Shown: positions 8,404 through 27,656 of the stretch, piece by piece
Numbering within the stretch: position 1 is the stretch's first letter
Layout: each line of letters begins with the position of its first letter
DNA from: a virus
Length of the DNA: 31,937 nt
IMG/VR virus record: IMGVR_UViG_3300044641_005221
Span: 1-31,937 of that record
Reading direction: 5' to 3' (one strand)
Notes under the pieces: generated by a model
The model's input: only the letters and a program-made list of their open reading frames with translations
The model's database searches: none
What the model was told of the DNA's origin: nothing
Position numbers and translations under genes: made by a program

Positions 8404-8412
8404 TTACTAAGT

Positions 8413-9264: not shown

Positions 9265-9268
9265 CAAT

Positions 9269-9296: not shown

Positions 9297-9321
9297 AAAA
9301 GATCAATTAATTGGAGTAACT

Positions 9322-10612: not shown

Positions 10613-10641
10613 CCATATCTATAAATTTTGGAAACTTCAAT

Positions 10642-11676: not shown

Positions 11677-12389
11677 AAAAAAATCTACTGATTATAGCTG
11701 CAGGTCCTGATGCCTTGTTTCAAGAATGGGGCGAGTATAAAGATTATGACTTTGATGTGGCAATTATACGTTGGGGAGACTTTGATCTAAACAATGTACA
11801 ACATGCAGCCTATTACGAATCTATTCCAGGATATAAGTTTCATATCATTGACAAATTTAGAAAGAAACATGATATATCGCAATATGAATACATCTGGTGC
11901 CTGGATGACGATTGCATTAGCACATGGGATCTAGTACAAGAAACATTCAAGTTCATGAAAGATGAAAATTTAGACATGGCACAGCCTGCACTAGAACCAA
12001 GTGGATGTTGGGCATGGGAACAAACCAAATGTGTGCTAGGTTCAAAAATGCGTATAAGCGACTGTGTTGAAATCATGACTCCTATTTTCAGCCAACGTGC
12101 ATGGCAAGTTTGCTGTGATGATATTCTTGAAAAATTACCTTTTGGTGCAGGATATTATCTTGAAGGCTATTGGAAAGCCAAATTGCAAAGCCATACAGGC
12201 ACTACAAAGTTTGGTGGCAAGGTTGCAATCATTGATCGACTGCCTGTGTATCACACAAAACCAGCTACATCTCCCGCTGAATGGGCTGCTCGTGGCCTTG
12301 ATGCAGGAGCAGATGGAAGATATTTGGTTGCTGAATTGGGTTATCAACTCGAATGGAACATTTTAGAAACTATACCAGATCATGACTAA
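11673..12389 (+). CDS. Probable glycosyltransferase, DUF707-like
   Basis: This 238-residue protein has a GT-A look. A first strand LLIIAAGPDALF is followed by strand-helix repeats and the metal-type motif YIWCLDDDCI (73-82). Then come DLVQETFKFMKDENLDMAQPAL, CWAWEQTK, and a late GAGYYLEGYW block. The LDDD context resembles DUF707 and related putative glycosyltransferases. The start at 11673 forms an ATGA overlap with the upstream stop; an ATG four codons earlier (11661) is possible. Substrate is unknown. Position between two SDR genes supports a sugar role. Confidence 0.65.
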   Translation: MKKNLLIIAAGPDALFQEWGEYKDYDFDVAIIRWGDFDLNNVQHAAYYESIPGYKFHIIDKFRKKHDISQYEYIWCLDDDCISTWDLVQETFKFMKDENLDMAQPALEPSGCWAWEQTKCVLGSKMRISDCVEIMTPIFSQRAWQVCCDDILEKLPFGAGYYLEGYWKAKLQSHTGTTKFGGKVAIIDRLPVYHTKPATSPAEWAARGLDAGADGRYLVAELGYQLEWNILETIPDHD

Positions 12390-13200
12390 GAAAATTTTAA
12401 TTACCGGAAGTGGTGGTTTTATTGGTAGTTTTTTAAAAAATCATTATGCCGGACAACACACTGTATTTGCTCCGGGTCACAGTGTTTTGGATTTGACCAA
12501 TAAAGAAACTGTTGATACTTTTTTTGAAAAAAACAATATTGACACAGTTATACATTGTGCTTTGGTTGGAAGAGATAGAATCAACGCAGTTGATCCAAAT
12601 CTAACAATGCAGAACTTGGAAATGTTTAAAAACTTATGGAGAAATAAACACAAGTTTAAAAAATTAATCAACTGCGGAACAGGTAATGAATTTGACACAA
12701 ATACCAATATATTTGGTGCTCGAGAAGATGAACTATATGAAAAACTGCCTGCGGCAAGTTATGGGTATTCTAAAAATTTAATTGCGAGAATAATTGCAAA
12801 CACAGAAAACTTTTACAACCTAAGATTATTTGGAGTTTTTCATCACACTGAAAATCCTAGAAGATTTTTTAGATTACTTAAAAACTCAAGTGAAGAAAAT
12901 CCCTGTATCATTTTTCAAAATCAATATTTCGATTTTCTAAACCTTGAAGATGTAGTACCTATGATCAACACTATTATGAATAACGAAGCTCAACATCGTG
13001 ACATCAACATGGTCTATCCAGAAAAGTATTTGTTAAGCGAGCAAGCGTATATGTTTGCGGATGAGCATGATATACCTCACAATAATATAATTGTTGAAAA
13101 TAAATCTGATATTAATTTTTCTGGCAATGGAGAAAAGTTTGCCAGTTACAATTTTAATTTAAAAGGATTGCATGATGGTTTTAGAAAGTACAAAAAATGA
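12382..13200 (+). CDS. Extended SDR, NAD(P)-dependent sugar epimerase/reductase
   Basis: This 272-residue protein has an N-terminal Rossmann motif ILITGSGGFIGSFL (5-18) and a catalytic pair Tyr127 and Lys131 in ASYGYSKNL. The short DLTNKETVDTFFEKN segment is characteristic of GDP-fucose synthase and dTDP-4-dehydrorhamnose reductase relatives. It lacks a typical long C-terminal substrate domain, so it is at the short end of the family. It probably reduces or epimerises the keto-sugar made by the RmlB-like enzyme upstream. That pairing is inference from order. It overlaps both neighbours (8 and 4 bases). Confidence 0.8.
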   Translation: MTKKILITGSGGFIGSFLKNHYAGQHTVFAPGHSVLDLTNKETVDTFFEKNNIDTVIHCALVGRDRINAVDPNLTMQNLEMFKNLWRNKHKFKKLINCGTGNEFDTNTNIFGAREDELYEKLPAASYGYSKNLIARIIANTENFYNLRLFGVFHHTENPRRFFRLLKNSSEENPCIIFQNQYFDFLNLEDVVPMINTIMNNEAQHRDINMVYPEKYLLSEQAYMFADEHDIPHNNIIVENKSDINFSGNGEKFASYNFNLKGLHDGFRKYKK

Positions 13201-13907
13201 TTAATCATTGTTTTATAGTAACTTCGGCAGTTAATAGTAAGTTTGGTGTTTATAGTGCAGATGAAAGATTATCACAAACTTTAAAAACTTTACAAAATAT
13301 TAAACACAAGGTTCCCGGCGCCAAAATTATTGTAATGGAATGTGCTGGTACTCCGATACAAGATGCACAAAGTCAAGTGCTTGAAGAAAATTGTGATTTA
13401 CTTTTAGATTTTAGTAACGACCCCGACGTGCATGCCATCTATCAAAGTGACAATTGGGATGTGGTGAAAAATTCAACAGAAATCATGTGTTTTGCACGTA
13501 CCTTGCGTATGTGCAAGCAAGACAATGATTTTCTCAATTGCGATAGAATTCATAAAATGTCCGGTAGATATATTTTAAATGACGAATTTAATTTAAATGT
13601 GTATGAACAACACAAAGATCGAATAATCATTGGACCAAAACATCAAAGTCAATTTTCGTTTCAAGTTACAGGAATTGAACTGCAATACATGGCTAGATTA
13701 TGGTCGTGGCCCGTTGATCAACTAGACACGGTGATTAAAGTTTATGAAGATAGTTTAAATTATATTGGACAAAGAGTAAGTCAAGGCGGATATGCCGACA
13801 TCGAACATGTGTTGTATAAATTTCTTCCATCAGAATTAGTTACTGAAGTCCCTGTTATGGGTGTTGAGGGTACTATAGCACCTAACGGTGTTGCTATAAA
13901 AAATTAA
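13197..13907 (+). CDS. Uncharacterised protein in sugar cluster, possible glycosyltransferase
   Basis: This 236-residue protein begins with a beta strand MINHCFIVTSAVNSKFG, then a helix and strand AKIIVMECAG that resemble the start of a GT-A nucleotide-binding domain. DCDRIHKMSGRYILNDEF-like spacing (cDRIHKMSGRY, about 115-126) recalls acceptor or donor segments in other phage glycosyltransferases. No clear DxD motif is present. I do not recognise the family securely. The gene is coupled to the upstream SDR by a 4-base overlap and is AT-rich like the rest of the cluster. Confidence 0.7.
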   Translation: MINHCFIVTSAVNSKFGVYSADERLSQTLKTLQNIKHKVPGAKIIVMECAGTPIQDAQSQVLEENCDLLLDFSNDPDVHAIYQSDNWDVVKNSTEIMCFARTLRMCKQDNDFLNCDRIHKMSGRYILNDEFNLNVYEQHKDRIIIGPKHQSQFSFQVTGIELQYMARLWSWPVDQLDTVIKVYEDSLNYIGQRVSQGGYADIEHVLYKFLPSELVTEVPVMGVEGTIAPNGVAIKN

Positions 13908-13919
13908 ATGGGTATTTGA

Positions 13920-14696
13920 ATGATTAATAATCGTGCATGGGCTGAATTGACAGAAACTTTTTTAACATCAGAACCATTCAATCATATTATCATTGATAAT
14001 TTTTTTACTGACGACGTAGCCGAAAAAATTGTTCAAGAGTTCCTTCCATATGATAGTCCTCAGTGGCGTGGTCAATGGGATAATGCAGTTGAAAATAAAA
14101 GGTTGCATAATGTATGGGACTTGTTTCCTGAAACTATATATAATGTTTTTACCTATTTGAATAGCCCAGAATGGGTTAGCACTTTAGAAACTATTGTCGG
14201 ACGTAAAAACGTATTTACTGACATTGGGTTACATGGTGGTGGACTACATTCACACAAATCTGGTGGACACCTAAATGTTCATCTTGACTATATTATTCAT
14301 CCAAAGTTAAAACTTAAAAGAAATTATAATTTGATAATTTATATGACTCCGAATTGGGATTCAGAATGGGGCGGCGGCTTAGAATTGTGGTCACATGATT
14401 CAGAAAAAAATGCACCAAAGGAATTAATTAAGACAGTTGACAATAGGTTCAACCGTGCTGTAATATTTGATACTACGCAAAATTCTTGGCATGGATTACC
14501 AGAAAAATTAGACTGTCCAGAAGGTATTACTAGAAATAGTCTGGCAATTTATTACCTAACGCAACCCGAAGGTAATACTGAACAACGTATGAAAGCATTG
14601 TTTTATCCCTACAAAGATCAAAAAGATGATCCAGCAGTTCTTGAGTTAATAAGAAAACGTGCAGATGTAAACGAAGTTAACAAAATGTATAGATAA
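13920..14696 (+). CDS. 2-oxoglutarate/Fe(II) oxygenase, prolyl-hydroxylase-like
   Basis: This 258-residue protein shows the complete metal and co-substrate set. GHLNVHLDY gives His121-x-Asp123, NSWHGLP gives the distal His191, and TRNSLAIYYL gives Arg205, which would bind 2-oxoglutarate. The spacing and the WGGGLELW segment (150-157) match P4H-type double-stranded beta helix oxygenases. Such enzymes hydroxylate proteins, sugars or small molecules. In this cluster a sugar, lipid or virion-protein target is plausible, but unproven. It starts 12 bases after the previous stop. Confidence 0.88.
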   Translation: MINNRAWAELTETFLTSEPFNHIIIDNFFTDDVAEKIVQEFLPYDSPQWRGQWDNAVENKRLHNVWDLFPETIYNVFTYLNSPEWVSTLETIVGRKNVFTDIGLHGGGLHSHKSGGHLNVHLDYIIHPKLKLKRNYNLIIYMTPNWDSEWGGGLELWSHDSEKNAPKELIKTVDNRFNRAVIFDTTQNSWHGLPEKLDCPEGITRNSLAIYYLTQPEGNTEQRMKALFYPYKDQKDDPAVLELIRKRADVNEVNKMYR

Positions 14697-15907
14697 TGAA
14701 AAATTGTAAAGAACTTAAAGAATGTATAGCCTGTGGTGGTGACGATCTATCACAGGCCATTGACTTGGGCGATCAACCGTTAGCGAATAATTTTTCTAAA
14801 ACGCCTGAACAAAATGATTTGTATCCCTTAAAAGTCAATGTATGTAATCATTGTTATCACTTGCAACTTACTCATGTGGTTGATCCAGATATCATTTATA
14901 AAAATTATGCGTATGTAAGTGGAACCAGTCGTACAAATTTAGACTACATGTGGTGGTTTGCCAAATGGACCAGAGAGTATTCTAATTTTCAATTTGGTAG
15001 TGTTCTCGATATTGGATGTAATGATGGCAGTCAGCTTGATTGCTATAAAAACTTAGGATACTTAACCTACGGTGTAGATCCAGCAGAAAATTTACTTTCG
15101 ACCAGCACAAACAAAGGCCACCAAGTGGTTTGTGGATTTTGGAACGAACAGTCTATAAAGAATTTAAACAACAAGCAGTTTGACATAGTGGTTGCGCAGA
15201 ATGCTTTTGCACACAATCCGGATCCAGTCACTTACTTGAAGTTGTTACAGCCTCTAATGAAAACCAATGGTTTGTTTTTTATTCAGACCAGTCAATCAGA
15301 CATGATAAGAAATGGAGAATTTGACACAATTTATCATGAGCATGTGAATTTTTACAATGTGAATAGCATGAATGAATTGTGTCGAAGAGCCGGATGGTAT
15401 CTAATTGATGTAATTAAAACTCCTATACATGGCACAAGCTATGTTTTTGTTCTTGGATTAAGAAATAATAGACCAGAACATATCAAAAATTTAATTGCCG
15501 GCGAATCAGATTTGTTATCAAAAAACACATACGTCAATTGGGAAAAACGTGTTTCGTATATTGCCGAAGAATTCAACTCGAGAATAACACTGTTCAAAGA
15601 ACATGGATACCACATTGTGGGATACGGAGCCGCAGCCAAGGGAATGACATTACTGAATTTTGCAAACATCAAACTGGACTATATCATTGATGACAATCCA
15701 AACAAACAGGGAACATACAGCCCAGGACAAAATATCCCTGTGGTAAGTATAGAGCATTTGGAAACTTATCAAAATGATCAAAAGATTTTATTTGTACCTT
15801 TGGCTTGGAACTTTTTTACTGAGATAAAAGATAAAATACTTGGAAAAAGAAATAATTCAAACGATAGATTTTTACGTTATTTTCCGGAGGTAGAAGTTGG
15901 AGTTTAA
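14696..15907 (+). CDS. Deoxysugar C-methyltransferase (zinc-containing, three-domain)
   Basis: This 403-residue protein matches the TylC3/NovU/TcaB9-type C-methyltransferases that add a methyl to a 4-keto-deoxysugar nucleotide. An N-terminal zinc site has Cys10, Cys13, Cys50 and Cys53. The SAM domain has VLDIGCNDGSQLD (103-115). The catalytic region IYHEHVNFY includes Tyr213, His214, Glu215 and His216. The C-terminal domain has HIVGYGAAAKGMTLLNF and YIIDDNPNKQGTYSPG, diagnostic for the family. Together with the RmlB-like enzyme upstream it suggests a branched deoxysugar. The start at 14696 overlaps the previous stop by one base. Confidence 0.92.
   Translation: MKNCKELKECIACGGDDLSQAIDLGDQPLANNFSKTPEQNDLYPLKVNVCNHCYHLQLTHVVDPDIIYKNYAYVSGTSRTNLDYMWWFAKWTREYSNFQFGSVLDIGCNDGSQLDCYKNLGYLTYGVDPAENLLSTSTNKGHQVVCGFWNEQSIKNLNNKQFDIVVAQNAFAHNPDPVTYLKLLQPLMKTNGLFFIQTSQSDMIRNGEFDTIYHEHVNFYNVNSMNELCRRAGWYLIDVIKTPIHGTSYVFVLGLRNNRPEHIKNLIAGESDLLSKNTYVNWEKRVSYIAEEFNSRITLFKEHGYHIVGYGAAAKGMTLLNFANIKLDYIIDDNPNKQGTYSPGQNIPVVSIEHLETYQNDQKILFVPLAWNFFTEIKDKILGKRNNSNDRFLRYFPEVEVGV
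15886..15890 (+). promoter_or_regulatory. Ribosome-binding site deciding a TTG start
   Basis: GGAGG lies six bases before TTG at 15897. The nearest in-frame ATG (15918) would remove the first conserved strand of the DUF6165-like protein and has no ribosome site. This supports TTG initiation. Confidence 0.7.
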
Positions 15908-16250
15908 ATTTCCTGTGATGGAACTGGTTGATCGTTATACTATTGCTCAAGTCAAACATGATAGAACTGGTGGCGCCAATCAGGCTGAACTGGATTTCTA
16001 TGAACAGCAAATGTTGGCAATTGACAAGATCACAATATGGGATGAGTTGCAGGCGTTTCGAATTTTACACAACAAAATCTGGAGTCTAGAGGATGACTTT
16101 AAAAAATGTAGGATAGATGGTACAGATCTAGCAGAAATTGGCCGACGGGCATTGGAAATTAGAAACTATAACAATTTTCGTGTACAATTAAAAAACACAG
16201 TGGCTGAAAAATTAAATGATTCAGTAAGAGAAGTGAAAACAAATGTTTAA
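15897..16250 (+). CDS. DUF6165-like protein
   Basis: This 117-residue helical protein resembles the DUF6165 family often found in glycan clusters. It starts with a short strand and ELVDRYTIAQVKHDR, followed by helices ending in HNKIWSLEDDFKKC and a final IRNYNNFRVQLKN segment. The family function is not known to me. Translation probably starts at TTG 15897, supported by a GGAGG site. It overlaps the C-methyltransferase by 11 bases and the next gene by 8. Confidence 0.75.
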   Translation: MEFKFPVMELVDRYTIAQVKHDRTGGANQAELDFYEQQMLAIDKITIWDELQAFRILHNKIWSLEDDFKKCRIDGTDLAEIGRRALEIRNYNNFRVQLKNTVAEKLNDSVREVKTNV

Positions 16251-17295
16251 TTATGAAACAGGCGAATATGATATACAATTAAAGATACCCACTGATAACT
16301 ATCAAGTGAATCATGTTTTCCCACGTCATTTATACGAATTTGAAAATTTTCTCTCACAAATTACTGTTACAGATCAAAATACTTTAATTATATTGTTAGG
16401 TGCATTTCAATGCTTAGGAGAAGCGGATTTTTGGATCAAACCTTTAGAAAAATTCAGTAGATCAATCGCCAATCCAGTAGTTTTGTTCACAGGCAAACTC
16501 ACATGCAACACAAATTATTTGAAGACTGAACTTGGTTTTAGTTATCATAGAATTTCTATGTTTGACTTAGTAAGCAATAATTATTACAATAGAAATAATG
16601 AAAATATTTTGAGAGATTGGCGAAAGGATTGCTATAATTTTAGAACAAAAAAATTTTATTGGGCAAGCAGTAAAGATTGGTACACCAGGAGATACATTTT
16701 AGCAGGTTTAATTAAGTCTAAACTATTAGATGATGGATTGGTAAATTATAAATGTATTCACACAGATATTCCAGGACCTTGGATAGAGCATCATATTGCG
16801 CCAGCACATGCACAACACATTGATGATGAATGTAGGTCAATACAATCGCAAATACCTTTGCCTAGTTTAGATAACACTGTGGAATTTCCTCAAACTGATG
16901 TTAACTTTTATCTTGACAGTTTATTGGGAATAGTGACGGACACTTTTTTTGACTTAGGTGTTTTTTTAAGTGAAAAAGTTTTTAATGCCATCAACTATCA
17001 ACAATTGTTTTTTTATATCGGATATCAAAACACTTTACAATATTTAAAAAATCAAGGATATAATACTTTTGACGATATAATTGATACTGGATACGACACT
17101 ATTGCTGAACCAGGACAAAGACTAGTGGCTGCGAGAGCGAGTCTGATAGAATTTTTAAATCGCCCAATAGAAAAAATAAGAAGTGATTATGAAAAAAGTA
17201 TTCCTGCTATACAACACAACAAAGAATTATTACAAAAACAAAGACCCGATTTAGAATTTACAAATATTTTACAAAAGATTTTAAATGAACATTGA
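16243..17295 (+). CDS. Uncharacterised large protein, possible GT-B glycosyltransferase
   Basis: This 350-residue protein is AT-rich and lacks a named motif. The C-terminal half reads FFDLGVFLSEKVFNAI, then YIGYQNTLQYLKNQGYNTF, then DDIIDTGYDTI. This resembles the 'TEKxxKp...GxxxxLxxLGFxTF...iDExYD' pattern seen in uncharacterised phage and bacterial glycosyltransferase-like proteins. The N-terminal half includes a strand LIILLGAF and SKDWYTRRYILAGLIKSKL. The position just upstream of a GT9-type gene supports a transfer role, but I cannot assign substrate or family firmly. Confidence 0.65.
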   Translation: MFNYETGEYDIQLKIPTDNYQVNHVFPRHLYEFENFLSQITVTDQNTLIILLGAFQCLGEADFWIKPLEKFSRSIANPVVLFTGKLTCNTNYLKTELGFSYHRISMFDLVSNNYYNRNNENILRDWRKDCYNFRTKKFYWASSKDWYTRRYILAGLIKSKLLDDGLVNYKCIHTDIPGPWIEHHIAPAHAQHIDDECRSIQSQIPLPSLDNTVEFPQTDVNFYLDSLLGIVTDTFFDLGVFLSEKVFNAINYQQLFFYIGYQNTLQYLKNQGYNTFDDIIDTGYDTIAEPGQRLVAARASLIEFLNRPIEKIRSDYEKSIPAIQHNKELLQKQRPDLEFTNILQKILNEH

Positions 17296-18157
17296 ACAAC
17301 AAATGCAAATACTAGTTCGTCGCCGAGCAGCACTAGGCGATGTTATCATGAGTACAGGTGTAGTTCGCGAACTTAAAAATCGTTACAACTGCGATATTGA
17401 TGTGGCCACAGAGTTTCCTAATGTGTATGATAACAATCCCCATGTGAGAGCAATTTATCATACCAATGCAATGCCAGACCTGGCCAATTATGATCTATAC
17501 ATTAATTTGGATGATGCCTACGAGCACAATCCTGTCAATCATTATCTGGACAGCTATTTCTATCGTGCTTTTGGTTCATCAACAGTGGATCACAAAGAGC
17601 CAGAACTATTCCCAAACGAATTTGATGTAGATACTGTAAATCATTTTTTCGAACATAACGAAATAGATGAGTACATTGTAGTTCATATTAGACAATGGTA
17701 TTGGCCGTTGAAAAACATGAGCTGGGACACTTGGTATGCTGTATTTGAACGACTGTTTAGTGCTCGTACAGATTTTAAGATAGTGTGTGTAGGAACCGCA
17801 CAAGATGGATCAGTTGAACATCCCCTGTTCGTTGATGCCAGAGATCGATTAAATGTGCAACAACAAAAACTTTTAATGGATCATGCCAGATGCTTTGTGG
17901 GCATAGACAGCGGCCCGTATCATATAGCTGTGGCCAGTCAAACACATATTGTAAGTTTGCATACACATTTACTGCCAGAGCGTATTGCACCACTGCATAA
18001 ACCATATACCCCCATCTTGAGTGCAGTTGATTGTGTGGGCTGCAATGACGATCAAGTACGACCGGTGAGACAGGTCGTATGCAAACACGGGGATTTTCGT
18101 TGTAAAGATGCATTTGATGCAGACAAAATAGCCAAAAACATTTTAGAATTATTATGA
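17285..18157 (+). CDS. GT9-type (heptosyltransferase-like) glycosyltransferase
   Basis: This 290-residue protein resembles ADP-heptose:LPS heptosyltransferases. The N-terminal RRRAALGDVIMSTGVVREL (12-30) corresponds to the family's xGDxxxxtPxxxxL motif, and FVGIDSGPYHIAVA (204-217) matches the GxDSGpxHxA donor-site block. It is shorter than LPS WaaC/WaaF (about 320-350). It opens a chain of overlapping genes that includes HldE and HldD homologues, so ADP-heptose is the probable donor. Four cysteines near the C-terminus (VDCVGCND...VVCKHGDFRCKD) could bind a metal, which is unusual for GT9. Confidence 0.85.
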   Translation: MNIEQQMQILVRRRAALGDVIMSTGVVRELKNRYNCDIDVATEFPNVYDNNPHVRAIYHTNAMPDLANYDLYINLDDAYEHNPVNHYLDSYFYRAFGSSTVDHKEPELFPNEFDVDTVNHFFEHNEIDEYIVVHIRQWYWPLKNMSWDTWYAVFERLFSARTDFKIVCVGTAQDGSVEHPLFVDARDRLNVQQQKLLMDHARCFVGIDSGPYHIAVASQTHIVSLHTHLLPERIAPLHKPYTPILSAVDCVGCNDDQVRPVRQVVCKHGDFRCKDAFDADKIAKNILELL

Positions 18158-18915
18158 CAAGTTTCAAACATAGCGGCACAGCCGGCGATACAATTTATAG
18201 TTTAGATATTGTACGTAAATTAGGCGGCGGTAATTTTTTTATTGCACTGAACAATATTGAAAATTGCATTTTAAAATATACCGGGAGACCCGCAGATGTG
18301 GCTCCTGAGCATCGCGGTAGATATACTCAACAAGATTTTGAATTACTACGACCTTTAATTGCTAGACAAAGTTACATAACCAATGTGGATTCTTGGAATG
18401 TTGGCGATGTAGAAGTTGATATTGATCTTGATCATTTTAGAAGTTATCTTTACAGACAGTTTGAAGGCAACATTATTGAAGCATATCATAAAGCTTTCAA
18501 TCTGCCTTGGCATGATTCAATGTACAGTGACGTATGGTTAGAAGCTGATCCAAAACGTGAAGCGCCAATTGTGATCAATAGAACTCATCGTTATCTAGAT
18601 CCTGACAGTCATTCTACTTGGCTGCAAATGTGTCAAGATGCTGATTTAAAAAACAACTCAATCTTTGTGGGCACAGAAAATGAACACAAAGATTTTGTAG
18701 AATGGACAAAGTGCGATGTACCTTATAGACCAGTCAAAGATTTCAAAGAACTGGCCGATTTAATTGCAGGGGCTGACTTATTTTTAGGCAATCAAAGTTT
18801 GGCATATAGCATAGCAACAGGCCTTGGCAAAGACACCATGTTGGAGATACATAAAATAAAACCACTTCAATATAGCGAATGTTATTTTCCTAGGCCAGGA
18901 GCCAGTTACTTTTAA
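18154..18915 (+). CDS. GT-B-like glycosyltransferase, distantly GT9-like
   Basis: This 253-residue protein appears related to GT9. It starts with FKHSGTAGDTIYSLDIVRKL (4-23), which keeps the GD-x-I-Y-S pattern, and ends with ADLFLGNQSLAYSIATGLGK in place of the GxDSGpxHxA motif. Family members with Gln-Ser instead of Asp-Ser-Gly occur among phage and marine bacterial proteins I recall. It is coupled by 4 bases to the GT9-type gene and by 1 base to the heptose kinase. It could be a second heptosyltransferase or an inactive partner. Confidence 0.7.
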   Translation: MTSFKHSGTAGDTIYSLDIVRKLGGGNFFIALNNIENCILKYTGRPADVAPEHRGRYTQQDFELLRPLIARQSYITNVDSWNVGDVEVDIDLDHFRSYLYRQFEGNIIEAYHKAFNLPWHDSMYSDVWLEADPKREAPIVINRTHRYLDPDSHSTWLQMCQDADLKNNSIFVGTENEHKDFVEWTKCDVPYRPVKDFKELADLIAGADLFLGNQSLAYSIATGLGKDTMLEIHKIKPLQYSECYFPRPGASYF

Positions 18916-19646
18916 TGAAGATTTTGCTAGTAGGCGATAATGGTATTGACCAATACCAATTTGGAACAGTGACCAGGATCAGTCCTGAAGCACCTGTGCC
19001 TGTACTAAACTATTCACATACTGTGACAAAACCTGGTATGGCTGCTAATGTCAGAGATAATTTAGAACGATTGGGTGTTGAAGTAGATTTTGTGCACGGT
19101 GTCAAAACTTGCATCAAGACCAGAGTAATAGATCAAAAAACCGGCCAGCATATAGTAAGAATAGATCAAGACATACCTAGTCGTGCCGTAAAAATTGACT
19201 ACACAGACATCAACAAGTATAATGCTGTTATTGTAAGCGATTATAACAAAGGCAGCGTAGAATATGAGACCATTGAACAGCTTAGAAAGAATTATACAGG
19301 TCCTATTTTCGTTGACACGAAAAAATCCGACTTGGCCAGATGTGAGGGTTGTTATGTTAAAATTAACCAATTGGAATTTGAAGCAGCTAAAACATTCCCT
19401 ACTGAGCTTATTGTCACACTCGGGCGAGACGGAGTACGATATAAAGAACACAAGATTTCTACTCCACAAGTAGAGGCGTTTGATGTATGCGGGGCAGGCG
19501 ATACTTTCTTGTCTGCTCTCGCATACAACTACGTTTTATCTGGAGACATATTGGCTGCAATAAGATTCGCCACTCGAGCAGCCAGCGTGACTATTCAACA
19601 CATTGGTGTGTATAGTCCCTCATTGACAGAAATAGAACAGATATGA
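18915..19646 (+). CDS. hldA: PfkB-type heptose-7-phosphate kinase, HldE N-terminal half
   Basis: This 243-residue protein is a PfkB-family kinase of the HldE-N/HldA type, which phosphorylates D-glycero-D-manno-heptose 7-phosphate at O-1. RISPEAPVPVL (21-31) is the HldE signature. GMAANVRDNLERLG (41-54) corresponds to GGAANVAxNlxxLG, and DVCGAGDTF (190-198, catalytic Asp196) is PfkB signature 2. It is about 70 residues shorter than the roughly 315-residue bacterial domain. The main gap is between VEVDFV and the CIKTRVIDQ strand, so it is compacted but keeps its motifs. It overlaps the cupin gene by 4 bases. Confidence 0.88.
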   Translation: MKILLVGDNGIDQYQFGTVTRISPEAPVPVLNYSHTVTKPGMAANVRDNLERLGVEVDFVHGVKTCIKTRVIDQKTGQHIVRIDQDIPSRAVKIDYTDINKYNAVIVSDYNKGSVEYETIEQLRKNYTGPIFVDTKKSDLARCEGCYVKINQLEFEAAKTFPTELIVTLGRDGVRYKEHKISTPQVEAFDVCGAGDTFLSALAYNYVLSGDILAAIRFATRAASVTIQHIGVYSPSLTEIEQI

Positions 19647-20011
19647 CTAGACTAGAAGGTTATGTAGCAAAAGGATGGGGTTCAGAATTGATCTGGGCAA
19701 CCAACGACAAATACTGTGGTAAAATGATGAATTTTCAGACGGGTGCCAAATTCAGTATGCATTTTCATCGAGAAAAAGATGAAACATGGTATGTATTAAG
19801 TGGAAAATTTATTGTAAAGTATATTGATACCGTAAATGCACATCAGTACGAAAAAGAATTGAACGAAGGTGATACTTGGCACAATCCGCCTTGTATGCCA
19901 CATCAACTTATTTGTGTAGAACAAGGTACTGTAGTAGAAGTTTCAACACCAGATTCCGTAGAGGACAATTATCGTGTACAACCTGGGGATAGTCAGAAGA
20001 GTAATAGTTAA
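19643..20011 (+). CDS. Cupin, PMI-II-like
   Basis: This 122-residue single-domain cupin resembles the C-terminal domain of type II phosphomannose isomerases. It starts with KGWGSELIWATNDKYCGK and has SMHFHREKDETWYVLSGK with His40, His42 and Glu47, then HNPPCMPHQLI with His87, giving a full metal site. Its place between the two HldE halves suggests a role on a heptose or other sugar phosphate, perhaps isomerisation. No GmhA is present. That role is inference. It overlaps the following adenylyltransferase by 38 bases. Confidence 0.82.
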   Translation: MTRLEGYVAKGWGSELIWATNDKYCGKMMNFQTGAKFSMHFHREKDETWYVLSGKFIVKYIDTVNAHQYEKELNEGDTWHNPPCMPHQLICVEQGTVVEVSTPDSVEDNYRVQPGDSQKSNS

Positions 20012-20393
20012 TGGCACATTTGACATACTGCATCGCGGGCACATTGAGATGCTTAACTTTGCTCGTAGTCAAGGTACCTATTTGTTGGTAGCAATAGATT
20101 CAGACAGACAGGTTCGAGAATTAAAAGGCAAAAGCCGGCCAATCAACAATCAAGAGGATAGGAAATTTCAACTTGAAAATCTCAAGTCAGTAAATGCTGT
20201 TTGGATCTTTGACACTCAAGAAGAACTGGAACATATTTGTAAAATATATAAACCACATCTCATGGTAAAAGGCAGTGACTACAGGGGCAAGCCAATTACT
20301 GGTCAGCAGTACTGTGAAGAAATTAAATATTACGAACTAGTAAAAAATTATTCAACGAGTAAAACAATTGAAAATATTAATAACCGGAAATAG
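19974..20393 (+). CDS. hldC: Heptose-1-phosphate adenylyltransferase, HldE C-terminal half
   Basis: This 139-residue nucleotidyltransferase matches HldE-C/HldC. VNGTFDILHRGHIEML carries HxGH (20-23), and ELKGKSRPIN followed by R and LENLKSVNAVWIFD is family-typical. HLMVKGSDYRGK and a terminal YSTSKTIENI match the KGgDY and STT-x-I motifs. It would form ADP-heptose from heptose 1-phosphate. The only usable start is GTG 19974, with GAGG at 19961-19964. This gives a 38-base overlap with the cupin. A cytidylyltransferase specificity (TagD-like) is the main alternative. Confidence 0.85.
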   Translation: MYNLGIVRRVIVNGTFDILHRGHIEMLNFARSQGTYLLVAIDSDRQVRELKGKSRPINNQEDRKFQLENLKSVNAVWIFDTQEELEHICKIYKPHLMVKGSDYRGKPITGQQYCEEIKYYELVKNYSTSKTIENINNRK

Positions 20394-21153
20394 AGGATTC
20401 ATTGGCAGTCACGCTGTAAGTTTCTGGCACAAGTTGGGTGGCCACGAAATCTTCACCTATGAATGGGACGAGCGTACATTACCTAGGATTGATGGATTAG
20501 ACTGGGTACTTCATTTTGGAGCCATAAGCAGCACTACCGAACGAGATGTTGCCAAGGTCATGCGTCAAAATTATGATTTTAGCGTATGGTTGTATGAGGA
20601 ATGTAGAAAACACGATGTGAATCTACAATGGTCAAGTTCGGCAAGTGTGTATGGCCTTGGACAAGATTTCACCGAAACTGCGCCCGTTGATCCGCGCAGT
20701 CCGTATGCGTGGTCAAAGTATCTATTTGAACATTATGTGGAAAAGCATCCCACGCATGTTCGGTGCCAAGGATTTAGATACTTTAATGTGTATGGCGCCA
20801 ACGAACAGCACAAAGGATCGCAAGCCAGTCCATACTATCAATTTGATATTCAAGCTCGATCCACTGGAATCGTAAAAGTTTTTGAAGGCAGTGAAAACTT
20901 CAGAAGAGACTTTGTTCCTGTTGATCAAGTACTTGGAATACAATTTCAATTCATAAATTGCAACATTGAAGAGAATGGTGTATGGAATATTGGCACAGGT
21001 CAGACACGATCCTTTATGGACATTGCTCAGGAAAAAGCCAATCAATACGGCGCACTAATTGAACAGATCCCGTTTCCTAAGCATTTAGAGTATAGTTATC
21101 AAACTTATACTTGTGCAGACTTAACAAAATTGCAACACACTTTTGGCGGTTGA
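20368..21153 (+). CDS. hldD: ADP-heptose 6-epimerase, HldD-like (C-terminally short)
   Basis: This 261-residue extended SDR matches HldD, which converts ADP-D-glycero- to ADP-L-glycero-manno-heptose. It has ILITGNRGFIGSH (3-15), HFGAISSTTE (49-58), Tyr113/Lys117 in SPYAWSKYLFEHY and GFRYFNVYGANEQHKGS (135-151). FEGSENFRRDFVPVDQV and IPFPKHLEYSYQTYTCADLTKL close it. All are close to E. coli HldD, but the last 30 or so residues of the 310-residue family are absent. The start is TTG 20368, overlapping the adenylyltransferase by 26 bases. The stop lies inside the -35 box of the next promoter. Confidence 0.9.
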   Translation: MKILITGNRGFIGSHAVSFWHKLGGHEIFTYEWDERTLPRIDGLDWVLHFGAISSTTERDVAKVMRQNYDFSVWLYEECRKHDVNLQWSSSASVYGLGQDFTETAPVDPRSPYAWSKYLFEHYVEKHPTHVRCQGFRYFNVYGANEQHKGSQASPYYQFDIQARSTGIVKVFEGSENFRRDFVPVDQVLGIQFQFINCNIEENGVWNIGTGQTRSFMDIAQEKANQYGALIEQIPFPKHLEYSYQTYTCADLTKLQHTFGG

Positions 21154-21186: not shown

Positions 21187-21663
21187 ATGAAATACTGGGC
21201 TTACGGAATGAATACCAACATAGCGGAAATGGCACGTCGTTGTCCTACGGCTGTGTGTCTTGGCGCTGCCTGGATCAACAACTATGAATTTGTGTTCCGC
21301 ACTCATGCTGATATTGTAGAATCTCCGGGCAGCATCTGCTATGGGGTACTATGGGATATTACACCAGCCGATCTCAAAAGCCTAGATGCACTTGAAGGCT
21401 ATCCCTATTACTACAATAGATTTAGAGTGCGGGTGAATCTTGGCGATCATTTTGTGTATGCACTCACATATCAAATGACGGATCAAACTTACATACAAGA
21501 ACCTGGCAGTGGCTACTTGGAAATGGTTCGCGAAGGCTACGAACAAAACGGTGTGCCCACTGGCCAAATTGACCAGGCTATAAATATGGTATGCTTATCT
21601 CAGGATTGGACGAGTGCGGAATACCCGTATATATGGCCTGCAACGACCAAGGCCTTTGTTTAA
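21187..21663 (+). CDS. Gamma-glutamylcyclotransferase-like protein
   Basis: This 158-residue protein has the GGCT/AIG2 fold signature. An N-terminal YGMNTN (6-11) replaces the YGSNLN binding loop and RCPTAVCLGAAWINNYEF is the second strand pair. CYGVLWDITPADLKSLDALEGYP holds the expected catalytic Glu70, and a C-terminal GYLEMVREGYEQNG helix follows. Such enzymes release 5-oxoproline from gamma-glutamyl compounds, although phage members may act on other amide-linked substrates. It is transcribed from its own promoter, not from the sugar operon alone. Confidence 0.85.
   Translation: MKYWAYGMNTNIAEMARRCPTAVCLGAAWINNYEFVFRTHADIVESPGSICYGVLWDITPADLKSLDALEGYPYYYNRFRVRVNLGDHFVYALTYQMTDQTYIQEPGSGYLEMVREGYEQNGVPTGQIDQAINMVCLSQDWTSAEYPYIWPATTKAFV
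21579..21586 (+). promoter_or_regulatory. Exact T4 late box TATAAATA
   Basis: TATAAATA matches the T4 late consensus at all 8 bases. It lies within the end of the cyclotransferase gene. A start about 21592 would fit translation from ATG 21633 or 21684 of the next small frame, or read-through to the aminotransferase. Chance occurrence in coding DNA is possible. Confidence 0.35.
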
Positions 21664-21833: not shown

Positions 21834-21862
21834 TTGACTACGGCTAGCTAATGCTATATATT
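21834..21862 (+). promoter_or_regulatory. Sigma70-type promoter, TTGACT-N17-TATATT
   Basis: TTGACT (21834-21839) and TATATT (21857-21862) are spaced by 17 bases. The predicted start near 21869 is 36 bases before the aminotransferase ATG, and an AAGGAG ribosome site is at 21893-21898. Confidence 0.75.
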
Positions 21863-21870
21863 GACTAGAG

Positions 21871-21885
21871 CTGGACCTTGTCCAG
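21871..21885 (+). other. 5'-leader hairpin of the aminotransferase mRNA
   Basis: CTGGAC and GTCCAG form a perfect 6-bp stem with a CTT loop. It would lie at the 5' end of the transcript, about 2 bases from the predicted start and 7 bases before the AAGGAG site. 5'-terminal hairpins are known to protect mRNAs from decay; that role here is inferred. Confidence 0.55.
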
Positions 21886-21904
21886 ACCATTCAAGGAGAG
21901 CAAT

Positions 21905-23080
21905 ATGGCTGGACGTAATTTTTTATTTGTACCTGGACCTACCAATGTTCCGGACCGAGTACAACGTGCTATGGTTGTGTCAATGGAGGACCATAGATCA
22001 CCAGATTTTCCTGCACTAACTAACTCAATAATTCCACGATTAAAACGCCTGTTTAGAACAGAAACAGGCACACCATTCATCTTTCCCAGCTCAGGCACCG
22101 GCTGTTGGGAAGCTGCACTGGCCAATACACTTAGTCCAGGCGACCGTGTTCTAGCTGCAAGGTTTGGACAATTTGGTCACCTATGGATTGAGATGTGCCA
22201 ACGATTAGGATTAGAAGTTGATATCGTTGATTGTGAATGGGGCACAGGTGTGCCACTTGACATTTATCGAGACCGACTAGAAGCAGATACCGAACACAAG
22301 ATCAAGGCTGTGTTAGTTACACACAATGAAACTGCCACCGGTGTCACGTCAGATGTTGCAGGTGTGCGCCGGATTATGAACAATGCAAATCATCCGGCTT
22401 TACTGTTTGTAGATGCTGTTAGTAGTTTTGCCAGTATTGATTTACGAGTGGATGATTGGGGCATTGACATGGTGGTCACAGGATCGCAGAAAGGTCTCAT
22501 GCTGCCAGCCGGATTGGGCATTTTGTGTGCTAGTGAGAAGGCGCTTGAAATGCGCAAGAGTGCCAAGTTACCCAGAGCCTACTTCAATTTGGATGACATG
22601 CTGAACTCAAATGCCACAGGCTATTTTCCATACACTCCTGCACTGTCATTGTTGTATGGATTGCGAGAATCACTCACCATGCTGGAAGAAGAAGGTTTAG
22701 ACAATGTTGTTAAACGTCACGCATATCTAGCTTCAGGTGTGAGAGCAGCGGTACAACAAGGTTGGGGTTTAGAATTATGTGCTAGAGAACCCCAATGGTA
22801 TTCGGATACTGTAAGTGCAATTATGGTACCCGAAGGCATCAACGGTGCAGATGTGATCAGTAGAGCATACCGAAGATATAACTTATCATTGGGTGCCGGC
22901 CTATCAAAGGTTGCCGGCAAGCTGTTCCGTATTGGTCACCTGGGCGACATGAACGAGGTTCATTTGATGGCTGCTATTGCCGGAGCCGAAATGGCCATGT
23001 TGGATTGTGGAATCAAAGTTGCACCCGGTAGTGGTGTGGCAGCAGCCAGTGAATATTGGCGTAACACAACATTGCTTTAA
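21905..23080 (+). CDS. Serine-glyoxylate-type class V aminotransferase
   Basis: This 391-residue PLP enzyme closely resembles bacterial serine-glyoxylate and alanine-glyoxylate aminotransferases. It has MAGRNFLFVPGPTNVPDRV, MEDHRSPDFP, FPSSGTGCWEAALAN (60-74), THNETATGV (139-147), LLFVDAVSSFASID with Asp170, and VVTGSQKGLMLPAG with the PLP Lys196. A FRIGHLGDMNE block lies near the C-terminus. It is full-length with no missing key residue. Likely chemistry is serine plus glyoxylate to hydroxypyruvate plus glycine. ATG 21905 has AAGGAG; the frame is open to 21878. It is a likely auxiliary metabolic gene with its own promoter. Confidence 0.93.
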   Translation: MAGRNFLFVPGPTNVPDRVQRAMVVSMEDHRSPDFPALTNSIIPRLKRLFRTETGTPFIFPSSGTGCWEAALANTLSPGDRVLAARFGQFGHLWIEMCQRLGLEVDIVDCEWGTGVPLDIYRDRLEADTEHKIKAVLVTHNETATGVTSDVAGVRRIMNNANHPALLFVDAVSSFASIDLRVDDWGIDMVVTGSQKGLMLPAGLGILCASEKALEMRKSAKLPRAYFNLDDMLNSNATGYFPYTPALSLLYGLRESLTMLEEEGLDNVVKRHAYLASGVRAAVQQGWGLELCAREPQWYSDTVSAIMVPEGINGADVISRAYRRYNLSLGAGLSKVAGKLFRIGHLGDMNEVHLMAAIAGAEMAMLDCGIKVAPGSGVAAASEYWRNTTLL

Positions 23081-23105: not shown

Positions 23106-23369
23106 ATGAAAAAACAAACCGTAACCATGACTCCCGAGGGCGGACGCTGGTGGCGCATGCGTATAACACATTGGAGCATTCTTGCATTCCTGTTTCCGCC
23201 CGTTTTTGTTTTACTTTGTGTGTTCTTGTTAAATCCGTTGTGGTTTAGGGACGACTTGCTAATTTGGTTTGAGAATCGAATCAATGCCTTCAGTGTGTGG
23301 CGTAACAAATTACTATATCGCATCTATCTGGGCGCAGATCCCGAGATGTGGCATGCGTTAAAAGATTAA
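23106..23369 (+). CDS. Small single-span membrane protein
   Basis: This 87-residue protein has a basic, Trp/Arg-rich N-terminus (GGRWWRMR), a hydrophobic segment at about 24-46 (ILAFLFPPVFVLLCVFLL), and a Trp-rich C-terminus (WFRDDLLIWFENR, VWRNKLLYRIY). This suggests an inner-membrane protein with an amphipathic cytoplasmic tail. It has no ribosome-binding site but has a -10 box next to its ATG. No function is recognised, although small phage membrane proteins often alter host envelope functions. Confidence 0.7.
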   Translation: MKKQTVTMTPEGGRWWRMRITHWSILAFLFPPVFVLLCVFLLNPLWFRDDLLIWFENRINAFSVWRNKLLYRIYLGADPEMWHALKD

Positions 23370-23398
23370 CAACTGTTGCAAAAACAACAACAGTTGTT
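23368..23398 (+). repeat. 11-bp inverted repeat after the membrane-protein gene
   Basis: AACAACTGTTG (23368-23378) and CAACAGTTGTT (23388-23398) form a perfect 11-bp stem with a 9-base loop. It begins in the stop codon of the upstream gene and is followed by GC and eight A residues, not T residues. It is therefore not a standard intrinsic terminator on either strand. It lies 17 bases upstream of a promoter -35, so it could be an operator or an RNA 3'-end hairpin. Confidence 0.7.
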
Positions 23399-23414
23399 GC
23401 AAAAAAAACAACAA

Positions 23415-23443
23415 TTGACCATAATTCACCATTTCTGTATAAT
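23415..23443 (+). promoter_or_regulatory. Sigma70-type promoter, TTGACC-N17-TATAAT
   Basis: TTGACC (23415-23420) and consensus TATAAT (23438-23443) are spaced by 17 bases. A leader of about 24 bases with AAGGAG precedes ATG 23474. Confidence 0.8.
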
Positions 23444-23473
23444 ATTGGTATAGTAATTAACAAGGAGCCAAAA

Positions 23474-23815
23474 ATGCGTATTACACAAACTGTAACAGTT
23501 AATGTGCGTCTTCCAAAATTTGAATCCGTGTGCCGTGAAATGTGGAAGTCACAAGATGGCATGTTTACCGCTTCTGAATGGCGAGGAATTGGCATTGATA
23601 AAACAGATGCAATAGCCCGCACTATTGCGGATCCTGTGGTTCGCGAAAAGTTCGATGCTGTAATTGCCAAACTTGCGACACGCAAGAATGTTAGACAAAT
23701 GGATTTTTATGCAGAGAATATTGCTTTTGACGTAATGAATAAGTTGTCTGCTCGTCATTGGATCGTAAAGGCCAATCAAGACTTGGCTGACAAATACTAT
23801 CCATATGGGTTCTAA
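23474..23815 (+). CDS. Small hypothetical protein with strong promoter and ribosome site
   Basis: This 113-residue protein starts with a strand RITQTVTVNVRLPKF, followed by helical segments (MWKSQDGMFTASEWRGIGI, DKTDAIARTIADPVVREKFD) and a C-terminal WIVKANQDLADKYYPYGF. No known motif is seen. The frame is open to 23348, but ATG 23474 is preceded by AAGGAG with ideal spacing and by a strong promoter, so the shorter start is clear. It precedes the AAA ATPase and has its own promoter, so it may be expressed early and at high level. Confidence 0.8.
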   Translation: MRITQTVTVNVRLPKFESVCREMWKSQDGMFTASEWRGIGIDKTDAIARTIADPVVREKFDAVIAKLATRKNVRQMDFYAENIAFDVMNKLSARHWIVKANQDLADKYYPYGF

Positions 23816-23895: not shown

Positions 23896-24933
23896 ATGAG
23901 TTTTGTTCGTATCAAATCTGGTGCATATCGTACAACTGACGTATCCGGTCGTACTTTTCAACTGGTCGAGCAGTACAAGACTGGCGTCAAAGGCGGTTAT
24001 GTAACTGTCAAGAACGGTGGCCAATTCCCTGGTTTTCCTGAAGACATCCGTGTCAAAGTGAATAGCATGAGTGATTATGAATTTGTAGGTGTCGATCAGT
24101 TTGACGGCGAGGTCATTACTGTTGATGCAGATGTACAGTCAGCAGTCAATGACAGCAAGACGGACGAAGAACGCATGGCCGAGATTGCCGAGCGTTTTGA
24201 GATCTTGCATGAGATGACCAAGGCTGCTACCAATGGTGACATCCGTGCAATGATTGTGTCGGGACCTCCGGGTGTGGGCAAGAGCTACGGTGTTGAGCTT
24301 GAGATTGAGAAGGCTACACTACTTGATCAAATTGCCGGTCGCCGACTCAGAGCCGAGGTTGTAAAAGGTTCGGCCACTGCAATTGGTCTGTATCAAGCCT
24401 TGTACAAGTATTCGGATCCCAACTGTGTTATCGTGTTCGATGACTGCGATAGTATCTTGCTCGACGATGTGTGTCTCAACTTGCTCAAGGGTGCTTTGGA
24501 CTCAGGCAAGAAGCGCAAGATTTCGTGGTTGAGTGACAGCCGGATCCTACGCAGCGAAGGCATTCCGGACAGCTTCGAGTTCAAGGGCAGTGTAATCTTT
24601 ATTACCAACTTGAAGTTCGACAAAATGAAGAGCCAGAAGTTGCGCGATCACTTGGATGCACTACAATCACGCTGCCACTACTTGGACCTTACACTAGACA
24701 CTATGCGCGACAAGGTCCTGCGTATCCGGCAGATTGCACGTAGCGGCGAATTGTTTGCGGACCTTGAGCTTACAGACATAGCACAGGACGAGATCATCGG
24801 CTTTATGGATGAGAACAAGAATCGGCTACGCGAGATGAGCTTGCGTATGGCTATCAAGATTGGTCAGCTGTACAAGAGCTTTCCTACCAAGTGGCAGGCA
24901 CTGGCTCAAAGCACTTGCATGAAATCTGCGTAA
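23896..24933 (+). CDS. AAA-family ATPase
   Basis: This 345-residue protein has a beta-rich N-terminal domain (1-75), then a P-loop ATPase. Walker A is SGPPGVGKS (122-130), Walker B is CVIVFDDCD (177-185), and sensor-like VIFITNLKF and a helical lid with RLREMSLRMAIKIGQLY follow. Similar ATPases occur in marine T4-like phages as proteins of unknown role. It is not the gp44 clamp loader, whose zinc-less RFC-type motifs differ. It forms a unit with its own promoter, AAGGAG site and intrinsic terminator. Its composition is more GC-rich than the sugar genes, consistent with high expression. Confidence 0.88.
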   Translation: MSFVRIKSGAYRTTDVSGRTFQLVEQYKTGVKGGYVTVKNGGQFPGFPEDIRVKVNSMSDYEFVGVDQFDGEVITVDADVQSAVNDSKTDEERMAEIAERFEILHEMTKAATNGDIRAMIVSGPPGVGKSYGVELEIEKATLLDQIAGRRLRAEVVKGSATAIGLYQALYKYSDPNCVIVFDDCDSILLDDVCLNLLKGALDSGKKRKISWLSDSRILRSEGIPDSFEFKGSVIFITNLKFDKMKSQKLRDHLDALQSRCHYLDLTLDTMRDKVLRIRQIARSGELFADLELTDIAQDEIIGFMDENKNRLREMSLRMAIKIGQLYKSFPTKWQALAQSTCMKSA

Positions 24934-25038: not shown

Positions 25039-26202
25039 ATGAAAAGATTCTCGTCAGTCGAAGACTACATCGAAGTAATGAACGGTGACCGTGATCCAAA
25101 TACCGGTAAAATTTACAGCCTATTCAACAGCACACCGCCAATAGTAAGCCTGGCCAGATACGATGTCCAGATATTGAGTAGCATGAGCCAGACCACACAG
25201 AGTGGTCGTGCCTTGACGGACCGGCAGGCCGAATTGGCTGCAAAGCTTGTTTTAAAATATCGTAAGCAATTGGAAAAGTTGGACATAGATGTTGGCCCTG
25301 TAGAGACACCAACCTATAGGTTAGGTATCAGGCAAATTGATCGCCGTAAAATGCTGTACGTAGAGAATGACACCATTGTACTAAAGTTTCCTTATGATAC
25401 TAGTTTGATCAATGATTTGAGAGATCTAGCAAAAATAAGTCAGGGCCGATGGAGGTTTGATCCTGCCAATCGTGCCTGGGCATTGGCCATAACAGAAACC
25501 AATGTTGTTGCTGCCAACGGCTTTGCACAGAATCATCAGTTCGAGATCGCACCTGAATTCGCACTATACGTGGAGGCTGTGCTCAACTGCGAACAAGTTG
25601 CCCACGAAATCAAACTGGTCAAACACAACAACAGATTGACTATTACCAATGCTGCAAATTCACTGATTGAAGCCATCAACAATTTGTGCGGGTTCGATCT
25701 TGACCGGCTGGATCAGCTGATAGACAATGCTGCCATATATGGTTACACGGTAGATGAAATGCTACAATTGGATACAGCACTCAAACACAATGCTCGGATC
25801 AGCAATTTGATGTTGGCACAGGAAACCAAATTTGCTCCCAACAGTGGCACGGACGTATTTGACGACATTGTTAAATATGCAGATATAACAGGCCGATATC
25901 CTATCTATGTTTATGAACCAGACATGAGCAACAAGTTGTATAACTCATTTGTGATCAGGTATTTTGCTGAATCAGATATCCATCGTGTGCAAACTCTAGG
26001 TCAATTGCACAGTGCAATTGATAAAAAAGTAATTTACTTTAACAAGTACAGTACCAAATGGGATCAACCGGTTCCGTTACTGATAAGTGGGCAAGGCATG
26101 ATGCACGGTGGAGAGAAAACCATGTTGATACAAGAGGCCGAAAAAGTTGTGTATTTTGCCGCTGAAGTGTATAATGTATCAACTATGAAGCGAAAGAACT
26201 AA
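25039..26202 (+). CDS. UvsW-linked protein with HARP-like segment
   Basis: This 387-residue protein is uncharacterised. Residues about 112-152 (TIVLKFPYDTSLINDLRDLA, then GRWRFDPANRAWALAI) resemble the HARP domain of SMARCAL1-type annealing helicases, where a fork-recognition module precedes the helicase motor. It is immediately upstream of uvsW, with a 1-base overlap. It could serve as a separate DNA-recognition partner of UvsW, which is inference. No ATPase motif of its own is seen. The start has no Shine-Dalgarno sequence and lies beside a -10 box; ATG 25078 is an alternative. Confidence 0.75.
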   Translation: MKRFSSVEDYIEVMNGDRDPNTGKIYSLFNSTPPIVSLARYDVQILSSMSQTTQSGRALTDRQAELAAKLVLKYRKQLEKLDIDVGPVETPTYRLGIRQIDRRKMLYVENDTIVLKFPYDTSLINDLRDLAKISQGRWRFDPANRAWALAITETNVVAANGFAQNHQFEIAPEFALYVEAVLNCEQVAHEIKLVKHNNRLTITNAANSLIEAINNLCGFDLDRLDQLIDNAAIYGYTVDEMLQLDTALKHNARISNLMLAQETKFAPNSGTDVFDDIVKYADITGRYPIYVYEPDMSNKLYNSFVIRYFAESDIHRVQTLGQLHSAIDKKVIYFNKYSTKWDQPVPLLISGQGMMHGGEKTMLIQEAEKVVYFAAEVYNVSTMKRKN

Positions 26203-27656
26203 TGCAGGCAAAGTTATTGATACGTGATGAAGTCAATGTCAAGATCGAAGGTCTTGAACTTGGCACTCGTACAGCCTTGGTCAAGCGATACAAGTACGAA
26301 ATACCAGGAGCCAGATATCAACCCAGTGTGCGTCTTGGTCGTTGGGATGGCAAGATTCCGTTTTTCAATCTAGGTGGCACCACCTATATCAATCTACTGC
26401 CCGAGATATTGCCTTACTTGGACGAACAAGGTTACGATGTTGAGGTCCAAGATACTAGACAGTATCGTACCACATTTGAATTTTCACCAGTAGATGAGAA
26501 CACCTATCAACACAAGACCTGGCCTCGTAATCATCCTCGAGCCGGCGAACCAATAGTACTTAGAGATTATCAACCAGAAATTATCAATAGATTCTTGACC
26601 AATCCACAGTGCGTACAAGAAGTGGCCACAGGCGCCGGCAAAACTATTGTCACAGCAGCCTTGGCTGATGCAGTCAGCCAGTACGGTCGTACCATTATTA
26701 TTGTTCCTAACAAAAGCCTAGTGACACAGACTGAAGATGATTTTGTGAATCTTGATCTAGATGCAGGTGTGTATTTTGGCGACAGAAAAGAATACGGTCG
26801 CACACACACCATTTGCACTTGGCAAAGTTTAAACAACTTGTTAAAGACAACCAAGAATGCCGAAGCAGAAATAACCATAGGTGAGTTCTTGGAAGGTGTA
26901 GTTGCAGTAATAGTAGATGAAGTACATCAGGCCAAAGCCGATGCTCTTAAAACATTACTAAGCGGTCCGTTTGCACAAGTGCCTATCCGTTGGGGACTTA
27001 CAGGTACCATACCCAAAGAAGATTACGCTAGACAGAGTATCAACTGCATGCTTGGGCCAGTGGTAGGGCACTTGAGTGCTAGCGAACTGCAAGAAGCCGG
27101 ACACTTGGCACAGTGCCATGTTAATGTTGTACAACTAATGGATCATCGAGAGTACAACAACTACCAAAGCGAATTAAAATATCTAATAGAAACTACGGAA
27201 AGACTAGACTACATTGCTCGATTGATAAGTACTATAGTTGAATCGGGCAATACACTTATTCTAGTAGATAGAATTAGCGCAGGGCGAGCATTAGCAGAAC
27301 GCCTGCCTGGCAGTGTGTTTGTGTCTGGAGCAACCAAGGCCGGGGAGCGCAAAGAACACTATGACGAAGTGGCAGAAGCTTCAGACAAAATCATCATCGC
27401 TACCTACGGCGTTGCTGCTGTTGGTATCAATATTCCCCGCATTTTTAATCTTGTTTTACTTGAGCCTGGTAAATCTTTTGTACGTGTTATACAAAGTATC
27501 GGGCGCGGAATACGTCGTGCAGAGGACAAAGACTTTGTTCAGATCTGGGACATAACCAGTACCTGTAAGTTTGCAAAAAGACATCTAACCAAAAGAAAAG
27601 CTTTTTATAAGGAAGCCAACTATCCATTTACTGTAGAAAAGGCCGAATGGGAATGA
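26202..27656 (+). CDS. uvsW: UvsW-type SF2 DNA helicase
   Basis: This 484-residue superfamily 2 helicase corresponds to T4 UvsW (about 500 residues), which unwinds R-loops and branched intermediates to shift replication to the recombination mode. The N-terminal DNA-binding part includes VRLGRWDGKIPFFN (43-56). The motor has LRDYQPEII, VATGAGKTIV (141-150, motif I), VDEVH (238-242, motif II), GLTGTIPK (motif III) and QSIGRGIRR (motif VI). A C-terminal KRHLTKRKAFYKEANYPF follows. No key residue is missing. Its end is coupled to the SGNH-like gene. Confidence 0.93.
   Translation: MQAKLLIRDEVNVKIEGLELGTRTALVKRYKYEIPGARYQPSVRLGRWDGKIPFFNLGGTTYINLLPEILPYLDEQGYDVEVQDTRQYRTTFEFSPVDENTYQHKTWPRNHPRAGEPIVLRDYQPEIINRFLTNPQCVQEVATGAGKTIVTAALADAVSQYGRTIIIVPNKSLVTQTEDDFVNLDLDAGVYFGDRKEYGRTHTICTWQSLNNLLKTTKNAEAEITIGEFLEGVVAVIVDEVHQAKADALKTLLSGPFAQVPIRWGLTGTIPKEDYARQSINCMLGPVVGHLSASELQEAGHLAQCHVNVVQLMDHREYNNYQSELKYLIETTERLDYIARLISTIVESGNTLILVDRISAGRALAERLPGSVFVSGATKAGERKEHYDEVAEASDKIIIATYGVAAVGINIPRIFNLVLLEPGKSFVRVIQSIGRGIRRAEDKDFVQIWDITSTCKFAKRHLTKRKAFYKEANYPFTVEKAEWE

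Follow-up and report, generated by a model that had tools for sequence, protein, structure and literature searches.

Gene content of the locus

The window, i.e. the whole stretch of 31,937 nt that was analysed (IMG/VR virus record IMGVR_UViG_3300044641_005221), contains a gene coding for a serine-glyoxylate-type aminotransferase (SGAT), together with a promoter, a palindrome and a ribosome binding site in front of it and several neighbouring genes that recur in related phages (Table 1). Direct reading confirmed the 391-residue reading frame, its start and the AAGGAG site as given in a preliminary description of this DNA. Genes of sugar-nucleotide, epimerase, methyltransferase and glycosyltransferase-like type make up a long island at positions 3352-21153, which is partly common to the syntenic phages; examples are a glf-like gene (at 9467) and a cytidylyltransferase-cupin fusion (at 3352). 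A radical SAM protein with a SPASM domain is encoded at 5486-6457, and radical SAM genes also occur near SGAT in the viral loci L003 and L194. Just 3' of the SGAT region, a terminator-like stem-loop was found on the minus strand (23377-23398).

Table 1. Features at the SGAT locus of the window
Feature	Position	Strand	Remarks
GGCT: gamma-glutamyl cyclotransferase-like upstream neighbour	21187..21663	+	PF06094, phrog_2520; adjoins SGAT in syntenic phages
Sigma70-type promoter TTGACT-17-TATATT	21834..21862	+	Similar promoter at 10 other syntenic phage loci
Palindrome CTGGAC-CTT-GTCCAG, 5' leader	21871..21885	+	Stem kept (one G.T), 3-nt loop varies among syntenic phages
Ribosome binding site AAGGAG	21893..21898	+	Direct read; GGAG retained in nearly all viral copies
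SGAT, 391 aa	21905..23080	+	ATG start 21905, TAA end 23080
87-aa protein, no assigned function, downstream neighbour	23106..23369	+	89-95% identity among syntenic phages
AAA ATPase, marker of syntenic phages	23896..24933	+	PF00004, phrog_1250
UvsW-like helicase, marker of syntenic phages	26202..27656	+	phrog_16

Protein family, fold and active site

The protein belongs to the class V aminotransferases (fold type I PLP enzymes), as it matched Pfam Aminotran_5 above cut-off (88.9 bits versus 21.5; residues 24-318) and possesses the Schiff-base Lys196 and the PLP-binding Asp170. Both residues had been placed correctly in the preliminary description, and they are invariant across 25 relatives. A PHROGs search with the SGAT protein retrieved no named family and one weak match of unassigned function. 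The closest solved relative by sequence was AGT1 of Arabidopsis (PDB 6pk1; 470 bits, next best 166), the peroxisomal, photorespiratory serine:glyoxylate aminotransferase (PDB 6pk1/6pk3). An AlphaFold2 model based on 25 relatives (mean pLDDT 90, pTM 0.89) resembled 6pk1 with a TM of 0.97 at 52% identity, so that both sequence and predicted fold are nearest to a proven serine:glyoxylate aminotransferase, with which fold, catalytic lysine and C-terminal helix are shared.

The serine site of AGT1 is made up of Pro15, Gly16, Tyr35', Arg36', Thr148, Lys201, Thr250' and Arg347 (PMC6797613), for which the phage protein has Pro10, Gly11, His30, Arg31, Thr143, Lys196, Thr244 and Arg342. The substrate arginines (Arg36' and Arg347) and both threonines are thus retained, and the sole change is that of Tyr35 into His30, which, together with the phage origin and the identity of 52%, distinguishes the protein from AGT1. 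A His-Arg pair in the same place contacts a substrate carboxylate in the phosphoserine aminotransferase of E. coli (PMC6797613). As all bacterial relatives checked, SGAT-type and BhcA-type alike, carry a histidine at the AGT1-Tyr35 position, His30 does not settle the amino donor.

That the phage encodes an enzyme of the SGAT subfamily, as proposed earlier, is virtually certain in view of the AGT1 match, the predicted fold and the conserved catalytic and substrate residues. The enzyme is very probably active, as far as sequence can tell, contrary to the inactive protein that the preliminary description named as a refuting outcome, given that no stop or frameshift was found, that these residues are kept and that the dN/dS of the viral copies ranged from 0.035 to 0.09 wherever dS was measurable. 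Family and residues strongly suggest the conversion of serine and glyoxylate into hydroxypyruvate and glycine, with serine as the likely main amino donor.

Promoter and leader palindrome

The promoter of the window matches at 10 of 12 positions, a score reached by about 4% of shuffles, and is by itself weak evidence. A TTGAC-17/18-TATA promoter precedes SGAT in all 11 syntenic loci tested, window included. Its distance to the ATG is 39-42 nt, save for two palindrome-less loci (17 and 25 nt), and the sequence farther upstream diverges. The sigma70-type promoter claimed for the gene is hence upheld, since the 10 further syntenic phage loci that were tested all have a like promoter, mostly at equal distance.

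The palindrome CTGGAC-N3-GTCCAG is situated downstream of the -10 box and ahead of the ribosome binding site. Its stem is invariant save for one G.T, and its loop reads CTT, TGA, AGA, TCA, TCT, TCG or ATC. It occurs in most syntenic phages, L005 and L019 being exceptions, and is missing from the viral copies outside the syntenic set. Compared with shuffled versions of this short leader, its RNA fold was no better (z -0.88), so the case for this element is based on conservation, not on energy. It may represent either a hairpin in the 5' part of the mRNA or an operator bound by a dimeric protein. A general phage element was considered too, and was rejected by a palindrome scan of IMG/VR, in which copies flanked by a promoter and a start codon were those at SGAT, the others resembling chance matches.

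Viral carriers of the gene

A search of other viral contigs, as suggested in the preliminary description, retrieved SGAT in 27 IMG/VR loci at 76-98% identity, and a profile-based scan added one close relative (L194; 72% identity). The gene order of the window is common to 16 IMG/VR contigs, with the AAA ATPase and uvsW downstream and, where the contig reaches, GGCT and an epimerase upstream; one of these contigs is 70.7 kb long and has a terminase match. In at least four further viral lineages, SGAT occupies other loci. It lies near a DNA polymerase gene in L003, and gene orders different from that of the window were also found in L004, in L009/L010 (on contigs of at most 220 kb that have a gp23-type capsid gene), in L012/L013/L026, in L022/L023/L024/L028 (up to 223 kb; gp23, a terminase and a UvsW of 65% identity are present on the largest contig) and in L194 (148 kb). 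Named phages yielded only distant SGAT matches, below 34% identity. With a G+C content of 47% and a GC3 of 38%, the gene fits phage genes, host copies having 51-66%.

The carrier had been called T4-like. Indeed, this virus record contains the T4-superfamily recombination genes uvsX, uvsY and uvsW, but its UvsX is nearest to those of XbC2, CBB and GAP32 (about 70%) and its UvsW to Phosso and the PA5oct group (51-54%), i.e. jumbo phages of 280-490 kb and not T4-type phages. The family query phrog_2 was a poor choice of hallmark and was left out of these results. Judged from these sequences, the carrier is better described as a large phage whose recombination genes are of the T4 superfamily and which stands closest to jumbo phages. 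The carriers appear to infect freshwater Burkholderiales, a host assignment made solely by gene phylogeny.

Acquisition from Burkholderiales and probable exchange between phages

Phylogenetic trees of 61 and 49 proteins, with paired support values, united the 15 main viral sequences into one clade (100/99 and 96/100, respectively), nested in a group that received strong support (100/100, 100/99) and in which the cellular sequences are from Burkholderiales. These sequences came mostly from metagenome bins labelled Oxalobacteraceae, Burkholderiaceae, Comamonadaceae or Polynucleobacter; the bins keep their record names, some of which are clearly mistaken (one Bordetella, one Rickettsia), so that only the broad group was used. 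The proteobacterial source proposed before was thereby narrowed to freshwater Burkholderiales. A single viral origin of every viral SGAT was rejected, since the one-clade result of the first tree (92/53) was lost once L194 was added. As the placement of L022/L024/L028 and of L194 relative to the hosts is unsettled, one to three captures are possible.

In a genome scan, glyA, encoding serine hydroxymethyltransferase (SHMT), was located directly before SGAT in 36 of about 51 cellular loci, ending 18-174 bp upstream; of the rest, several end at a contig edge and one group has another neighbour. The Burkholderiales enzymes encoded behind glyA are 74-81% identical to the viral ones, are sister to or enclose the viral clade, and bear a C-terminal tail (roughly 5 to 30 residues) missing from the viral copies; the phage genes stand alone. 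Neither glyA nor gcvT (GcvT) was found on the viral contigs searched, many of which are fragments, and for a hydroxypyruvate-reductase-type C-domain the search yielded no more than weak, partial hits on two phage contigs. Paraburkholderia and Methylibium fall outside the nearest host clade. The link to the serine cycle of methylotrophs is weaker than the preliminary description implied, given this position of Methylibium and the glyA-SGAT pair of the nearest hosts.

The SGAT proteins of the window and L002 group with those of L003, L004 and L009 (100/98), which have another gene order, and apart from most syntenic contigs, although most of the latter have a neighbouring AAA ATPase and UvsW with 90-96% identity. 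This indicates that SGAT alleles have been transferred between phage lineages. A gene of the window near SGAT with no assigned function (23348-23815) is 89% identical in L004 (11375 onward), which otherwise does not have the window gene order; it may therefore have travelled with SGAT.

Proposed role during infection and alternatives

SGAT is a genuine phage metabolic gene, which probably encodes a functional SGAT-type enzyme, was derived from freshwater Burkholderiales and was passed among phages, and which may serve glycine and one-carbon supply and glyoxylate clearance. After acquisition and subsequent movement between phage lineages, the gene would be transcribed from its own sigma70-type promoter, to which its conservation points, and its product, predicted to adopt the AGT1 fold, would act as a dimer. 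Serine, and possibly alanine or aspartate as well, would donate its amino group to glyoxylate, yielding glycine and hydroxypyruvate, as family and residues suggest. During infection, the glycine may enter purine synthesis or, via the host glycine cleavage system, deliver one-carbon units, and glyoxylate, for instance from algal glycolate, may be cleared or salvaged. Overall, the phage probably steers host glycine and serine metabolism. Serine used by SGAT forfeits the methylene-THF that SHMT would produce from it, and the clear gain would therefore be glycine and glyoxylate removal instead of one-carbon units as such. Any one-carbon gain would rely on host enzymes, because the phage contigs searched have no glyA or gcvT.

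Glycine supply is a plausible main benefit, albeit one that falls somewhat short of probable. With an identical reaction, the benefit may instead consist of removing glyoxylate, by detoxification or salvage of glycolate carbon, and not of glycine for nucleotides. This is rather unlikely, in spite of the pairing of cellular homologues with glyA, of the many carriers from freshwater bins and of the cellular locus L055, where phosphoribulokinase and class II fructose-bisphosphate aldolase genes adjoin SGAT, which fits a photorespiration-like role in that cell.

Another possibility concerns the substrate. An enzyme like BhcA, the aspartate:glyoxylate aminotransferase of the beta-hydroxyaspartate cycle, would consume aspartate and produce oxaloacetate and glycine. 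BhcA (NF045640) was indeed the best NCBIfam model, and the His30-Arg31 pair offers a conceivable binding place for a carboxylate side chain. The score of 592.7 bits is, however, under the equivalog cut-off of 650 bits, and the alphaproteobacterial sequences that exceed this cut-off share about 52-56% identity with the phage protein and sit on a distant tree branch. Whereas bhcB or bhcC adjoins two of these alphaproteobacterial loci, no bhcB, bhcC or bhcD was encountered in the neighbourhood of the phage gene or in those of the Burkholderiales homologues examined, which have glyA alongside. Score, tree position and neighbours led to the rejection of BhcA membership, and a BhcA-like reaction is considered improbable. 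BhcA itself accepts serine with glyoxylate (PMC9436414), so both activities overlap in the same subfamily, the use of this pair by the phage enzyme being deduced from family and residues. The safest label is that of a glyoxylate aminotransferase of the SGAT/BhcA subfamily, most likely with serine as donor.

A service of SGAT to phage surface-sugar genes is very improbable: the upstream sugar-nucleotide/glycosyltransferase island of about 18 kb, with epimerase and cytidylyltransferase-cupin genes, could suggest it, but the genes examined near SGAT in L009/L010, L022/L028 and L194 are of other kinds, and aminotransferases acting on sugars are generally members of the DegT family rather than of the SGAT subfamily. 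Misjoined host and phage DNA, the chimera named in the preliminary description as a way to refute a phage gene, or a decaying passenger gene can practically be dismissed, as nothing beyond the cellular origin of the gene speaks for it, the synteny across 16 contigs already refutes it, and the intact frame, a dN/dS far below 1 and the phage-like base composition oppose it as well.

Auxiliary metabolic gene

The gene is host-derived and metabolic, lies inside phage genomes, and is intact and under selection, as is the case for phage auxiliary metabolic genes, with which it further shares a promoter in the phage, selective retention and exchange between phages. A selective benefit is likely, because the gene recurs in several phage lineages, is under purifying selection and has exchanged alleles. 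A literature search, outside which most subscription journals fell, so that priority is unproven, found no paper joining glyoxylate aminotransferase and viral auxiliary metabolic genes, and a term search of a Limnohabitans phage paper found no aminotransferase. The enzyme and auxiliary metabolic genes are both known; the steady presence of SGAT in phages appears to be undescribed. It adds glyoxylate, glycine and serine metabolism to the pathways with phage-carried genes, in abundant freshwater bacteria, and if the substrate is glyoxylate from algal glycolate, it would bear on the redirection of that carbon during viral infection. On a tentative reading, which is less likely than not, large phages that infect freshwater Burkholderiales would repeatedly use glyoxylate-to-glycine transamination as a point of control. 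They would have taken SGAT from the host glyA-SGAT pair, would express it alone behind their own promoter and 5' palindrome to turn glyoxylate, for instance that from algal glycolate, directly into glycine for phage DNA, and would trade alleles with unrelated phages.

Further genes were observed near viral copies of SGAT, some of them for nucleotide or cofactor metabolism. A phosphate-transporter-subunit gene (phrog_5385) is present in two phage lineages (L010, 10254-11309; L022, 1963-3027), a NAD synthetase gene in L004 (15242-16042), and a thymidylate synthase gene about 6 kb 3' of SGAT on the 223 kb phage contig L028 (15096-15953).
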